Source: Microbacterium testaceum
GTDB lineage: Bacteria > Actinomycetota > Actinomycetes > Actinomycetales > Microbacteriaceae
Assembly: GCF_020781835.1 (NCBI RefSeq)
Contig: NZ_JAJGNJ010000005.1
Location: 62,001 to 126,000 of the forward strand
Length of the DNA stretch: 64,000 nt
Reading direction: 5' to 3'
The notes beneath the pieces were generated by a model. The model saw only the letters and a list, made by a program, of their open reading frames with translations. It searched no databases and had not been told where the DNA came from. Below, in pieces: positions 32,409 to 37,166 of the stretch (the stretch's first letter is position 1; every line of letters starts with the position of its first letter). The position numbers and the translations under genes were made by a program.

Positions 32409-34523
32409 GTGACCGACACCGCCGCCCGCCCCCTTCCTCCCGTCGCCGCCCGCCGCGTCACCGCGCGCACCCACCACGGCGACACGTTCGACGACCCGTA
32501 CGAGTGGCTGCGCGCCAAGGAGGACGCCGAGGTCGTGGCCCACCTCGAGGCCGAGAACGCCTACACCGACGCGCGCACGGCGCACCTGGCATCCCTCCGT
32601 GACGAGATCTTCGGTGAGATCAAGGGCCGCACGCTCGAGACCGACCTGTCGGTGCCCGCCCGCCGCGGCCAGTGGTGGTACTACGGCCGCACCGTGGCGG
32701 GCGCGCAGTACGGCATCCAGTGCCGCGCCCCCCTGGCCTCCCCCGACGACTGGACGCCGCCCTCGCTCTCCCCCGACGTGCCCGTGCCCGGCGAGCAGGT
32801 GCTCTTCGATGGCAACGTCGAGGCGGAGGGCACCGACTTCTTCTCGCTCGGGAGCTTCGAGGTCTCCAACGACGGCACGCGCATGCTGTACGGCATCGAC
32901 GTCGCCGGCGACGAACGCTACACGGTCCGTGTGCGCGACCTCGTCACCGGCGAGACCCTGCCCGACGAGATCCCCGGCACCTTCTCCGGAGCCACCTTCT
33001 CCCCCGACGGTCGTTTCATCGTGTACACCACCGTGGATGACGCCTGGCGGCCCGACACCGTGTGGCTGCACGAGATCGGGACGGGTGTGGATGCCGACGT
33101 CACGCTGTTCCACGAACCCGACGAGCGGTACTGGGTCGGCGCCGATTTCACCCGCAGCGACCGCTACCTCGTGATCGGCGTGGGCTCTTCCATCACGTCC
33201 GAGGAGCGCCTGGTCGACGCCGATGACCTGCGCGGCGAGGCCCGCGTCGTCTGGCCCCGCCGCGAGGGCGTGGAGTACTCCACCGAACACGCGGTCATCG
33301 ACGGCGAGGACGTGCTCTACATCCTGCACAACGACGGCGCGCTCGACTTCGAGCTGGTGCGGGTCCCGGCATCCGCTCCGGAGGGTCCGCGCGAGACGGT
33401 GATCCCCCATCGTCCCGGCGAGCGCCTGCTCGGGGTCGACACGTTCCGCGAGTGGGGTGTCGTCGCCTACCGTCGCGACGGGCTGGCGCGCCTGGGCATG
33501 CTGTCCTACGCCGATGGGACGGTCACCGAGATCGTGTTCGACGAGCCGCTGTACAGCGTCGGGACCGGGGGGAACCCCGAGTGGGCACCGCCCGTGCTCC
33601 GCGTGGGCTACGGCTCGTTCGTGACCCCCGGAACCGTATACGACTACGTCGTCGACACCGGCGAGCTGCTGCTGCGCAAGCGCCAGCCGGTGCTCGGCGG
33701 GTTCGATCCCGCCGACTACGGGCAGGCCCGTGTGTGGGCGAGCGCCGACGACGGAACGCGCGTCCCCGTGTCGCTGGTGTGGAGGCGCTCGTTCGGAGAG
33801 CCCGGGGCGTCGCCGCGTCCGGTGCACCTGTACGGGTACGGCTCCTATGAGCACTCGATCGAACCCGGATTCTCGGTACCGCGTCTGTCGCTGCTCGACC
33901 GCGGCGTCATCTTCGCCGTCGCGCACGTCCGCGGGGGCGGCGAGATGGGCCGCCAGTGGTACGAGGACGGCAAGCTCCAGGCCAAGCGCAACACCTTCAC
34001 CGACTTCGTCGCGGTGGCCCGCCACCTCGTGGCATCCGGCTACACCACTCCCGAGCGGCTGGTGGCCGAGGGCGGCAGCGCCGGCGGCCTGCTCATGGGT
34101 GCGGTGGCGAACCTCGCACCGGAACTGTTCGCCGGCATCCTGGCCGACGTGCCGTTCGTGGACGCGCTCACCACGATCCTCGATCCGTCCCTCCCCCTCA
34201 CCGTCATCGAATGGGACGAGTGGGGCGACCCCCTGCACGACGCCGACGTCTACGCGTACATGAAGTCGTACACGCCGTACGAGAACGTGCGCGCGGGCGT
34301 CGCCTACCCCCGGGTCCTCGCCGTCACCTCGCTCAACGACACGCGCGTGCTGTACGTCGAGCCGGCGAAGTGGGTGCAGCGGCTGCGCGAGGTGGGCGCC
34401 GACGCGCTGCTGAAGTGCGAGATGGTCGCCGGGCACGGCGGCGTCAGCGGCAGGTACAACGCGTGGCGCGAGCGCGCCTTCGAGCTCGCCTGGCTGCTCG
34501 ACGTCCTGGGTCTCGCGGAGTAG
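32409..34523 (+). CDS. prolyl oligopeptidase family peptidase (oligopeptidase B-like, S9A)
   Basis: A 704-residue serine peptidase with an N-terminal beta-propeller (about 80-420) and a C-terminal alpha/beta-hydrolase domain. The nucleophile lies in EGGSAGGLLMG (Ser near 557) and the catalytic His in VAGHGGVSGR (near 676), with an Asp expected between (SLNDTRVLYVEP). HLYGYGSYEHSIEP is typical of oligopeptidase B, which cuts short peptides after Arg or Lys. There is no signal peptide. It starts at a GTG. Confidence 0.9.
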   Translation: MTDTAARPLPPVAARRVTARTHHGDTFDDPYEWLRAKEDAEVVAHLEAENAYTDARTAHLASLRDEIFGEIKGRTLETDLSVPARRGQWWYYGRTVAGAQYGIQCRAPLASPDDWTPPSLSPDVPVPGEQVLFDGNVEAEGTDFFSLGSFEVSNDGTRMLYGIDVAGDERYTVRVRDLVTGETLPDEIPGTFSGATFSPDGRFIVYTTVDDAWRPDTVWLHEIGTGVDADVTLFHEPDERYWVGADFTRSDRYLVIGVGSSITSEERLVDADDLRGEARVVWPRREGVEYSTEHAVIDGEDVLYILHNDGALDFELVRVPASAPEGPRETVIPHRPGERLLGVDTFREWGVVAYRRDGLARLGMLSYADGTVTEIVFDEPLYSVGTGGNPEWAPPVLRVGYGSFVTPGTVYDYVVDTGELLLRKRQPVLGGFDPADYGQARVWASADDGTRVPVSLVWRRSFGEPGASPRPVHLYGYGSYEHSIEPGFSVPRLSLLDRGVIFAVAHVRGGGEMGRQWYEDGKLQAKRNTFTDFVAVARHLVASGYTTPERLVAEGGSAGGLLMGAVANLAPELFAGILADVPFVDALTTILDPSLPLTVIEWDEWGDPLHDADVYAYMKSYTPYENVRAGVAYPRVLAVTSLNDTRVLYVEPAKWVQRLREVGADALLKCEMVAGHGGVSGRYNAWRERAFELAWLLDVLGLAE

Positions 34524-34577: not shown

Positions 34578-34647
34578 GTCCCACTTATGGCGGTGCATGT
34601 CCCAAAATATGCAGCCTCAGGGCGGCCGAAACTGCCATAAGTGGGAC
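34578..34647. repeat. 70-nt inverted element E1, 3' side of the DUF559 gene
   Basis: It starts GTCCCACTTATGGC and ends with the exact reverse complement (34634-34647). It is 7 bp past the DUF559 stop. The reverse complement of the element at 35679-35748 has the same length, and its first 30 bases differ at only two positions; about three-quarters of all 70 match. Confidence 0.85.
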
Positions 34648-34654
34648 ATTGAGG

Positions 34655-35572
34655 TCACAGCCCCGGCCGCCACCCCGCCCTGATCAGCGCAGAGCGCACC
34701 ATCACCACGGCGGGAGCACCGCCGTCGCGGAGGTGGTGGCTCAGGATGCGAACATGGTCCCAGCCGGCATCCCGGATAGCGGCCCATCGGTCGGCGTCCC
34801 TGGCGAACTGTCGCGGGTCTTCGGCGTGCACCCGACCGTCGTATTCGACCGCCACCCTCCACTGCTCGAAGGCGAGATCGATCTCGGCGACGAACTCGCC
34901 GCGCGGCGAGAAGATGTCCGTATTGACCTGCGGTTCGGGGAGACCCCGCCGGACGAGCAGCAGCCGGAGACGGGTCTCTCTCGGCGACCGGACACCGGGG
35001 CGCGCCAACGCGAGGGCCCGACGCAGGATGCCACCGCGGACATCGCCCATGAGAGCCACTTCGGCCTCCAACTCTTCGATGGATGCCAGCGGGTTCCGAC
35101 CCGCCAGCAGCGCGTCGGCGCCGGCGACGAGATCGTCGAGACGCCAGAGGCGACCGCATTGCCGCCACGCCCGCACGGCGTTCTCGACCGGCATCCCGAA
35201 TGGACCGACTTCGATGGCGGATTCACGGGTCTGCAGCCGATGCCCGACGACACCGCCCGTTCGCGGTTCCCTTGCCGGCCGATGTGCCGACACATGGATC
35301 GCCGGCACATGGGGCCACTCCGGTGTGCTGAGGCCCCGCAGGGCGAAAACGGTCTCGTGACTGAAGAACTGCCCCGGAGCCAGACGCGGTGCGTAGGCCC
35401 GGCATCGGTCGGCGATGGTGTGGACGTCACGCACCGACCGCGATCGCACACCGTGGAAGGGTGCTGCCAGGTCTGAGGAGCGCAAGCGCCCACGACTCAC
35501 CCCCTTCCCGCATGCTTCGGCGACATGAAAACGCTCAGGGAGGTCGGCGGGTAGAGGCTGCGGTCGGGTCAT
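34655..35572 (-). CDS. DUF559 / Vsr-like endonuclease-domain protein with AbiEi-like N-terminus
   Basis: A 305-residue protein. The N-terminal ~90 residues resemble the winged-helix of type IV AbiEi antitoxins. The C-terminal ~110 form a DUF559 PD-(D/E)xK nuclease-like domain: GEFVAEIDLAF (226-235), VAVEYDGRVH (240-249) and a C-terminal WDHVRILSHHLRD. These match the acidic catalytic residues of Vsr-type nucleases. Function in vivo is unknown. No toxin partner is adjacent. It is bracketed by two inverted copies of a 70-nt repeat. Confidence 0.75.
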   Translation of the reverse strand: MTRPQPLPADLPERFHVAEACGKGVSRGRLRSSDLAAPFHGVRSRSVRDVHTIADRCRAYAPRLAPGQFFSHETVFALRGLSTPEWPHVPAIHVSAHRPAREPRTGGVVGHRLQTRESAIEVGPFGMPVENAVRAWRQCGRLWRLDDLVAGADALLAGRNPLASIEELEAEVALMGDVRGGILRRALALARPGVRSPRETRLRLLLVRRGLPEPQVNTDIFSPRGEFVAEIDLAFEQWRVAVEYDGRVHAEDPRQFARDADRWAAIRDAGWDHVRILSHHLRDGGAPAVVMVRSALIRAGWRPGL

Positions 35573-35678
35573 GCCTCAGGGTCCCGGACGGAGTCGCCTA
35601 CGTCGGCACTGTCCACACGCCGTCGTTGCGAGGTGTGGCTTGTGCAGAAGGCATCCCGTCGCTCGCCGCGCGGAGTAT

Positions 35679-35748
35679 GTCCCACTTGTTGCTGTCTCAG
35701 AGCACATCAGGCGACAACATTTGGGACATGCACCCCCATAAGTGGGAC
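35679..35748. repeat. 70-nt inverted element E2, 5' side of the DUF559 gene
   Basis: Inverted homologue of the element at 34578-34647, lying 107 bp upstream of the DUF559 start. Its ends are GTCCCACTTGTT and CCATAAGTGGGAC, so it can also fold on itself, less perfectly than E1. Confidence 0.85.
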
Positions 35749-35778
35749 GTGGGGGCGTACGCCGCACCGGAATCTGCC

Positions 35779-35920
35779 GCGGCAGCGGGACGCGGCAGCG
35801 GGACGCGGCAGCGGGACGCGGCAGCGACACACCGTAGCGGGACGCGGCAGCGACACACCGCAGCGCCCCGCAGCGCCACACGGCAGCGGCCCACGGCAGC
35901 GGGGCGCGGCGTCGGCGGAG
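35779..35920. repeat. tandem repeat, 13-nt unit, about 11 copies
   Basis: The unit GCGGCAGCGGGAC is perfect for the first three copies; later copies drift and sometimes lose a base (for example GCGGCAGCGACAC). It ends at the pfkA stop. Such arrays often vary in copy number between strains. Confidence 0.75.
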
Positions 35921-35922
35921 GC

Positions 35923-36951
35923 TCAGCCGAACAGCGCGGCGGCCTCCTCGTAGCGGTAGAGGGGGACGCTGTTGAGCTCGCCGAGGGCGTCGGCGAACGG
36001 CACACGCACGATGTCGGTGCCGCGCAGCGCGACCATCTGCCCCCAGGCGCCGTCGTTCAGCGCGTCGGCGGCGTGCAGTCCGAGACGGGTCGCGAGCACG
36101 CGGTCGAAAGCCGACGGCGAACCGCCGCGCTGGATGTGCCCGAGCACCGTGGCGCGGGTCTCGATACCGGTCAGTCGCTCGATCTCGGGGGCCAGCTGCT
36201 CGCCGATGCCGCCGAGACGGGGGCGGTTGAAGGCATCCAGGCCCTTGTCGCTGAAGGCCTCGTCCATGCCCTTGAGCTTGAAACCCTCGGAGACGACGAC
36301 GAGCGGCGCGCGGCCGCGGTCGTGGGCGCGCGTGACCTGCTCGGTGATCTCCTCGATCGACATCGGCACCTCGGGGATGCAGATGACGTGCGCGCCCGCC
36401 GCGATGCCGGCGTGCAGCGCGATCCAGCCGACGTGACGGCCCATGACCTCGGCCACCATGCAGCGCTGGTGCGAGTCGCCGGTCGTGCGCAGACGATCCA
36501 TGGCATCGGTCGCGATGTTCACCGCGGTGTCGAAGCCGAACGAGTAGTCGGTGGCGCGCAGGTCGTTGTCGATCGTCTTGGGCACACCGATGACGTTGAT
36601 GCCGTCCTTCGACAGACGGTCGGCCGCGGCGAGCGTCCCCTCTCCGCCGATGGCCAGGATGCCGTCGATACGGTGACCGTACAGCGTTTTGGAGATGTTC
36701 TCGGCGCCGCCCCGGGCGCCCTCGTAGGGGTTCGTGCGGCTCGTGCCGAGGATCGTTCCGCCGACCTTGGAGAGCCCCTTCACCTCGTGACGGGTCAACG
36801 GGAAGAAATCACCGTCCACGACACCGCGCCACCCGTCACGGATACCGACGAACTCGATGTCGTGATTGGTGGTGCCTTTGAGCACGACACCACGGATGAC
36901 GGCGTTGAGCCCGGGGCAGTCTCCGCCGCTGGTCAGGATGCCGATCTTCAT
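35923..36951 (-). CDS. pfkA: 6-phosphofructokinase (actinobacterial group III type)
   Basis: A 342-residue PfkA. TSGGDCPGLNAVIRG (8-21) binds the nucleotide, IGGEGTLAAA (101-110) has Gly at the ATP-selecting position, and VPKTIDND (123-130) contains the catalytic Asp. HIQRGGSPSAFDR is the C-terminal substrate site. It phosphorylates fructose 6-phosphate in glycolysis. Lys before TIDND is the residue of PPi enzymes, but together with the Gly it marks the ATP-using actinobacterial subgroup. The ATG at 36951 matches the conserved MKIGILTSGG start. Confidence 0.95.
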   Translation of the reverse strand: MKIGILTSGGDCPGLNAVIRGVVLKGTTNHDIEFVGIRDGWRGVVDGDFFPLTRHEVKGLSKVGGTILGTSRTNPYEGARGGAENISKTLYGHRIDGILAIGGEGTLAAADRLSKDGINVIGVPKTIDNDLRATDYSFGFDTAVNIATDAMDRLRTTGDSHQRCMVAEVMGRHVGWIALHAGIAAGAHVICIPEVPMSIEEITEQVTRAHDRGRAPLVVVSEGFKLKGMDEAFSDKGLDAFNRPRLGGIGEQLAPEIERLTGIETRATVLGHIQRGGSPSAFDRVLATRLGLHAADALNDGAWGQMVALRGTDIVRVPFADALGELNSVPLYRYEEAAALFG

Positions 36952-37046
36952 GCTGTGAACCTCGCTAATGGGGATGATCGAGTCGGCGACACTGCCGCGT
37001 TCGACATTACTGCCCCTCCTGCCGCGCTCGCCAAACGGGGGACGCG

Positions 37047-37166
37047 TCACGTACGACGCCACGAGCCGGGCTCGCCCGGGTCGGCGCTGATCCAGTCCTC
37101 GACGGCTCCCACGGGCGTGACGTCGTCGAACCAGAACGTCTCGTCCGGACCCGGCTCAGAAAACAC
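37047..37166 (-). CDS. possible 39-residue small protein
   Basis: A GTG-started frame, acidic (VFSEPGPDETFWFDDVTPVG, then AVEDWISADPGEPGSWRRT), with ordinary codon use for this genome. It begins inside the terminator hairpin of the upstream helicase gene and has no good ribosome site, so expression is doubtful. It lies between that gene and pfkA on the same strand. No family recognised. Confidence 0.35.
   Translation of the reverse strand: MFSEPGPDETFWFDDVTPVGAVEDWISADPGEPGSWRRT

Follow-up and report, generated by a model that had tools for sequence, protein, structure and literature searches.

We analyzed a 64-kb stretch of Microbacterium DNA (referred to here in its entirety as the window) that contains a gene for a 305-aa nuclease-like protein (positions 34655 to 35572, minus strand), recognized on the basis of the ORF list, Pfam, an AlphaFold model, and structural alignment. 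The gene lies between a gene of the prolyl oligopeptidase family (Peptidase_S9; 32409 to 34523, plus strand) and a phosphofructokinase gene (35923 to 37062, minus strand; the start may be 36951). Two 70-nt elements frame it: E1 (34578 to 34647, plus strand), located 7 nt past the stop codon, and E2 (35679 to 35748, minus strand), located 106 nt before the start codon. An earlier note on this DNA had described two 70-nt elements, inverted relative to each other, that differed at 2 of the first 30 positions and matched at about three-quarters of their positions overall. Our measurements agree (2 mismatches in the first 30 positions; 53 of 70 positions identical), also regarding the 7 bp between the stop codon and E1. 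The upstream placement of E2 was likewise correct, but its distance from the start codon had been given as 107 bp.

Each element is composed of a 49-bp palindrome, i.e., two inverted half-sites (E1, 34599 to 34647, plus strand; E2, 35679 to 35727, minus strand), and one direct half-site located 21 bp outward, away from the gene. The gene-distal segments with this outer half-site and its linker span 34578 to 34598 (plus strand) in E1 and 35728 to 35748 (minus strand) in E2. The 14-bp perfect ends previously assigned to E1 do match each other, but they pair the outer half-site with the far arm, and the true palindrome is the 49-bp one. All four copies of the half-site GTCCCACTTNT in the window lie within E1 or E2 (mean copy number in 100 shuffles, 0.04). 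All 37 aligned elements had the ends GTCCC../..GGGAC, and different GTC motifs were present at other loci. A tandem array of a 13-bp unit (GCAGCGGGACGCG), with nine register copies, adjoins E2 at positions 35769 to 35923 of the window.

The AlphaFold model of the protein had a mean pLDDT of 94.8. On the basis of VIA-align Z-scores for this predicted structure, residues 2 to 191 were assigned an AbiEi-antitoxin-like fold (AbiEi [6y8q]: Z, 10.7; 178 residues; rmsd, 6.0; Rv2827c [1zel]: Z, 7.3), and residues 194 to 301 were assigned a Vsr/I-Bth0305I-like nuclease fold (I-Bth0305I: Z, 12.4; rmsd, 2.4; Vsr: Z, 10.2). The fold matches are distant, because Foldseek alone yielded zero matches against PDB at an E value of ≤0.001. 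A Pfam scan to an E value of 10 returned only REase_MTES_1575 and DUF559, and no Y1/HUH transposase. Both scores were under the gathering cutoffs (25.5 versus 38.2 bits for MTES_1575; 16.2 versus 20.6 bits for DUF559). NCBIfam gave matches far under the cutoff for two of four proteins and zero for the other two. The PADLOC models for AbiEi matched the window protein weakly (E value, 0.004). No function is known for the DUF559 family, and the label of a DUF559 nuclease, as proposed in the earlier note, falls short by sequence; its nuclease part is supported by structural alignment. Among the 87 aligned proteins, residues D232, E243, H249, and D259 are invariant, and D245 is conserved in 86. Given these acidic and histidine residues, nuclease activity is probably retained.

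This locus is not the only one with such elements. Hereafter, P1 denotes the clade of the window gene (≥56% identity), with GTCCCAC palindromes, and P2 denotes the clade of a second such gene in the same genome. The full P1 pattern gave 15 matches per strand in the genome, at 16 distinct places including the two beside the gene (reversed control, 0), and P1 half-sites numbered 55 (control, 4). As judged with a home-made ORF caller, which recovered the window gene itself only partly, 22 of 22 P1 palindromes and 22 of 24 P2 palindromes were extragenic. The additional intergenic copies expected from the earlier reading were thus found. Six of ten P1 intergenic regions (the gene's own excluded) lie between convergent genes. 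When P1 and P2 were pooled, convergent gaps were enriched (14 of 30 versus 6 of 36 of the window's own gaps; P = 0.015), and the deficit of divergent gaps (3 of 30 versus 10 of 36) was not significant (P = 0.12). Three convergent gaps (L209, L211, and L216) each hold four P1 elements in a row, approximately 105 to 138 bp apart. The Rfam search returned five matches up to an E value of 5, every one of which was under the gathering score.

The second gene (L013; G000:C67:149465-150563) is 48 to 50% identical to the first, and its protein was matched clearly by the PADLOC models for AbiEi (E value, 4e-11). It is without GTCCCAC; a motif-free search revealed that another palindrome, GTCCAAGACACGCCG.., frames it, the pattern of which occurs at 24 places in the genome including the gene's two (control, 0). 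Across the genomes scanned, matches reach up to 60 per strand in a genome. As far as can be judged from the DNA sequence, two independent gene-repeat families therefore coexist in one genome.

Both families were compared across 247 genomes of the genus. With P2 genes called at an E value of ≤1e-78 to L013 (the gene thresholds were chosen after the lists were seen), the P2 repeat was present in 25 of 25 genomes with the gene and in 13 of 222 without it (P = 4e-25). The strict P1 pattern was present in 23 of 44 genomes with the gene and in 8 of 203 without it (P = 5e-14), and 4 of these 8 hold a partial homologue. A P1 covariance model, in a scan that scored approximately 20 candidates per genome and hence reports presence rather than copy number, matched all 44 genomes with the gene at an E value of ≤0.01, yet it also matched 84 of the 203 genomes without a P1 gene of ≥56% identity. 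At a best E value of ≤1e-8, the corresponding counts were 39 of 44 and 20 of 203. These counts largely agree with the idea that the repeats are tied to these genes and are not equally common without them, but some genomes have repeats and no gene was found in them: G002 and G175 had P1-model matches at an E value of ≤0.01, and no homologue was found at an E value of ≤0.001. Two of the 13 genomes with P2 repeats have many, and these two, G053 (40 matches) and G240 (16 matches), in which the P2 gene was not detected, hold either orphan repeat populations or missed genes.

We also examined the flanks of homologous genes. For 42 P1 loci with complete flanks (≥56% identity; 2 of 44 loci were left out as cut), a palindromic pair was found on both flanks in 23 cases. 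The earlier note had named a lack of flanking similarity in relatives that keep the gene as evidence against its reading; this is not the pattern, since GTCCCA half-sites lie on both flanks of 36 of the 42 loci. In control windows 400, 800, and 1,100 bp off these loci, half-sites were present on both sides in 4, 0, and 0 cases, respectively, and pairs in 0. A motif-free test compared the 250-bp upstream flank with the reverse complement of the 250-bp downstream flank, relative to 40 shuffles. It detected inverted flanks at 76 of 88 loci of the genus (windows 500, 800, and 1,100 bp off, 8/86, 2/86, and 5/85) and at 25 of 46 loci in other genera of the phylum (offset windows, 1/44, 0/43, and 0/28). 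In the motif-free search that had revealed the P2 palindrome, the flanks of six loci (L132, L134, L137, L089, L085, and L129) scored ≤2 above the shuffles. When the flanks from the other genera were rerun against fresh shuffles, 20 of 28 close homologues (HMM score, ≥120) and 6 of 18 distant ones had inverted flanks. The REPIN-RAYT-like anatomy with a Vsr-like nuclease that had been proposed for the window thus holds for most of the tested loci of the genus and for about half of those tested in other genera.

Homologues at an E value of ≤1e-20 were present in 26 of 296 genomes of the phylum, two of which were Microbacterium. In a genome of another family (G254), five genes (L152, L177, L178, L181, and L183) each have their own inverted repeat common to both flanks, and the repeats of L152, L177, and L178 are palindromic on both sides. 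One motif from outside the genus was tested for dispersal; it had matches in one of seven genomes, at three places, two of which were the gene's flanks and one an extra copy. Homologues of the peptidase S9 and phosphofructokinase genes adjoin 42 and 40 of the 44 P1 genes, respectively, and at least one of these Pfam-named neighbors accompanies 57 of 91 genes (43 of 44 P1 genes and 14 of 47 others).

Comparison of the proteins with their palindromes shows that protein and repeat co-diverge. On a tree of 88 proteins, all 17 rows with the GTCCA motif fall inside a single clade of 18 rows, and all motif groups together (6 of the 88 rows were without an assigned motif) require 21 changes versus 42 for shuffled labels (0 of 200 shuffles as low). 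Rows with GTCCCAC are spread over more than one clade (14 changes versus 29.6 shuffled). When dispersed copies were compared with gene-flanking copies, the own genome ranked first in 7 of 7 genomes and for 35 of 40 elements (1 of 5,040 permutations). At the peptidase S9-phosphofructokinase locus itself, GTCTCAC palindromes replace GTCCCAC in L118, L129, and L131. At the same conserved locus, L134, L138, and L139 have GTCACA-type palindromes, several of them weak, and may represent a natural specificity switch.

The earlier note had called the repeats hairpin forming, which is doubtful. Between genomes, the arms covary strongly (0.269 versus 0.155 shuffled and ≤0.098 when slid). A hairpin deduced from this covariation was withdrawn, because the within-genome control left a weak effect: arms of the same element paired at 0.702 versus 0.674 for arms of different elements, with 21 of 1,000 shuffles as high. 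Because pairing within elements is barely above that across elements, both arms mostly track one genome-specific half-site. Regarding single-stranded DNA folding, the 70-mers gave z values of -5.3 (E1) and -1.95 (E2), and the 49-mers gave approximately -1.8.

A pair of double-stranded half-sites appears to describe the arms better than a hairpin does. Beside P1 genes, neighboring half-sites on the same strand are exactly 21 bp apart in 58 of 100 cases, and in 70 of 101 cases, the distance to the start of the next inverted partner is 42 or 43 bp; these spacings equal two and four helical turns. According to excerpts of PMC7319586, the site bound by AbiEi comprises two inverted repeats of 23 bp separated by 3 bp (49 bp in all), and the repeats of Rv2827c, the other protein of this type with mapped sites, are separated by 13 bp, not 3. 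I-Bth0305I is described, in an excerpt of PMC3943268, as dimerizing on a target of nearly 60 bp. The AbiEi operator and this long target are the best structural precedents, and in our reading, the palindrome would accommodate two AbiEi-like modules on double-stranded DNA.

Similarity among copies fades approximately 5 bp outside the element; therefore, the elements are discrete units at unrelated sites. Tandem arrays of elements occur. One locus was searched in 15 genomes, and both flanks could be compared in 6 of these, own included; the flanks of G006 were on two contigs and were not judged, and 8 genomes gave weaker, paralogue-like matches. In the orthologous gap, the element count was one for the own genome, zero for G101 (gap, 52 bp), and two for each of G070, G171, G104, and G072; neither an excision nor an insertion event was seen. 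A MITE-like nature, as suggested in the earlier note, is at best tentative: dispersed P2 copies have their arms but barely their loops in common, and one of the five other genomes with both flanks is without the element at the one locus compared. Among 20 P2 copies of equal length, 98% of the arm positions but 45% of the loop positions were shared (33% when shuffled), and recent copy transposition of entire elements is accordingly unsupported. Upkeep of the arms is clear from the same alignment; because the arms are shared to such a degree and the loops are not, selection could hold the arms as ordinary binding sites.

REP-like repeats are widespread in bacteria, and their mode of spread is still debated; to our knowledge, HUH transposases are the only dedicated REP enzymes known. 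The arrangement described here resembles REPIN-RAYT, as portrayed in excerpts of PMC3116915 and PMC3733652, in several respects: the gene is flanked by inverted palindromic repeats with many extragenic copies, two conserved inverted units enclose a less conserved spacer, tandem clusters occur, and a genome can have more than one gene-repeat family. It differs in its enzyme, which has a Vsr-like nuclease fold and is without a Y1/HUH transposase match; in its repeats, which are without the GTAG tag and end in GTCCC../..GGGAC; in its double-stranded-looking half-sites, with extra ones phased at 21 bp; and in its host, Microbacterium. Because the enzyme and the tag differ and a hairpin is doubtful, the nuclease-repeat pair is not a REPIN-RAYT member; at the level of the repeat population, it works like one.

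The CGTC-tagged REPs are also dispersed palindromes, for which the 2013 survey, in its excerpted text, found no dedicated transposase (PMC3733652). The phyla listed there are Proteobacteria, Chlorobi, Bacteroidetes, Spirochaetes, and Thermotogae, and the term "actinobacteria" is absent from its main text (PMC3733652); our repeats are set apart from the CGTC class by this description, not by a consensus. AbiEi and Rv2827c share the N-terminal fold and, in the case of AbiEi, the 49-bp inverted-repeat geometry, but the module is here fused to a nuclease fold and its sites are scattered genome-wide. An AbiEii toxin gene was not found as a direct neighbor, the neighbors being the peptidase S9 and phosphofructokinase genes. 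I-Bth0305I (an EDxHD homing endonuclease) and Vsr share the nuclease fold and, in the case of I-Bth0305I, a long dimer target; here, in contrast, the gene locus is conserved, the sites associated with the gene are many and extragenic, and no intron or intein was noted.

The nuclease-repeat association is real, strongly supported, and apparently undescribed; among open-licence papers, we found no description of such a link. On balance, we favor a partnership like REPIN-RAYT with an unrelated enzyme, based on binding, cutting, and upkeep by repair. In this mechanism, two protomers would most likely sit on the double-stranded 49-bp palindrome, each contacting one arm through its AbiEi-like module, and further protomers would occupy the half-sites phased at 21 bp. 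The Vsr/I-Bth0305I-like domain would nick or cut at or near the site. Repair of the break from another copy would hold a genome's sites in line with its current protein and would occasionally add or remove intergenic sites, thereby allowing for spread. A role in regulating the gene is also probable for the upstream copy, in which case the protein would be autoregulatory.

Several of the observations could also be accommodated by a binding-site network without mobility, in which the palindromes are operators, the gene-side copies autoregulate, the dispersed copies form a regulon or a chromosome-organizing set that tracks specificity by point mutation, and the nuclease acts elsewhere. The 49-bp geometry is that of the AbiEi operator (PMC7319586, excerpts), half-site neighbors beside P1 genes are phased at 21 bp (58 of 100), the arms act as near-independent half-sites within a genome, and arms are conserved with unconserved loops. 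We nevertheless regard this network as rather unlikely, given that elements lie downstream of the gene and not just upstream, that convergent gaps, where promoters are rare, are enriched, that tandem arrays occur and one gap holds 0, 1, or 2 elements, and that up to 60 matches per strand in a genome would be many for a self-regulator.

The two folds and the PADLOC matches to AbiEi (weak for the window protein, clear for L013) would fit a genome guardian or self-marking system, in which the palindromes would serve as self tags or as sinks and the nuclease would be directed against incoming DNA or aberrant structures. Such a role appears improbable: the direct neighbors, at least one of which stands beside 43 of 44 P1 genes, are neither toxin nor defense genes. 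Most improbable, and already disfavored, is the explanation that these are ordinary REP or terminator-like repeats moved by another agent, with the nuclease gene riding along. REPs are reportedly placed, as a rule, between unidirectional and convergent genes, and the placement seen here is in keeping with this; two repeat families in one genome, each adjoining its own gene, and the codivergence of repeats with protein argue against it.

Returning to the favored partnership of nuclease and repeat, we put forward, tentatively and with slightly more doubt than confidence, a broader proposition: much of the actinobacterial AbiEi-Vsr (DUF559-like) family may constitute another class of repeat-keeping enzymes that arose independently, a non-HUH counterpart of RAYT. 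Each paralogue would have a private double-stranded palindrome, would frame itself with two copies of it, and would keep its genome-wide sites in step with its shifting specificity by cutting and template repair. If true, the existence of another, unrelated class of enzymes with repeats of their own would mean that gene-repeat partnerships evolve repeatedly. It would also provide a first testable role for DUF559/Vsr-like proteins, of which there are several paralogues per genome in Microbacterium and its relatives. The genes and palindromes form a natural series of cochanging protein-site pairs, including one Microbacterium locus with more than one motif, and the proposition, if true, predicts a recognition code that would be readable from genome sequence alone.
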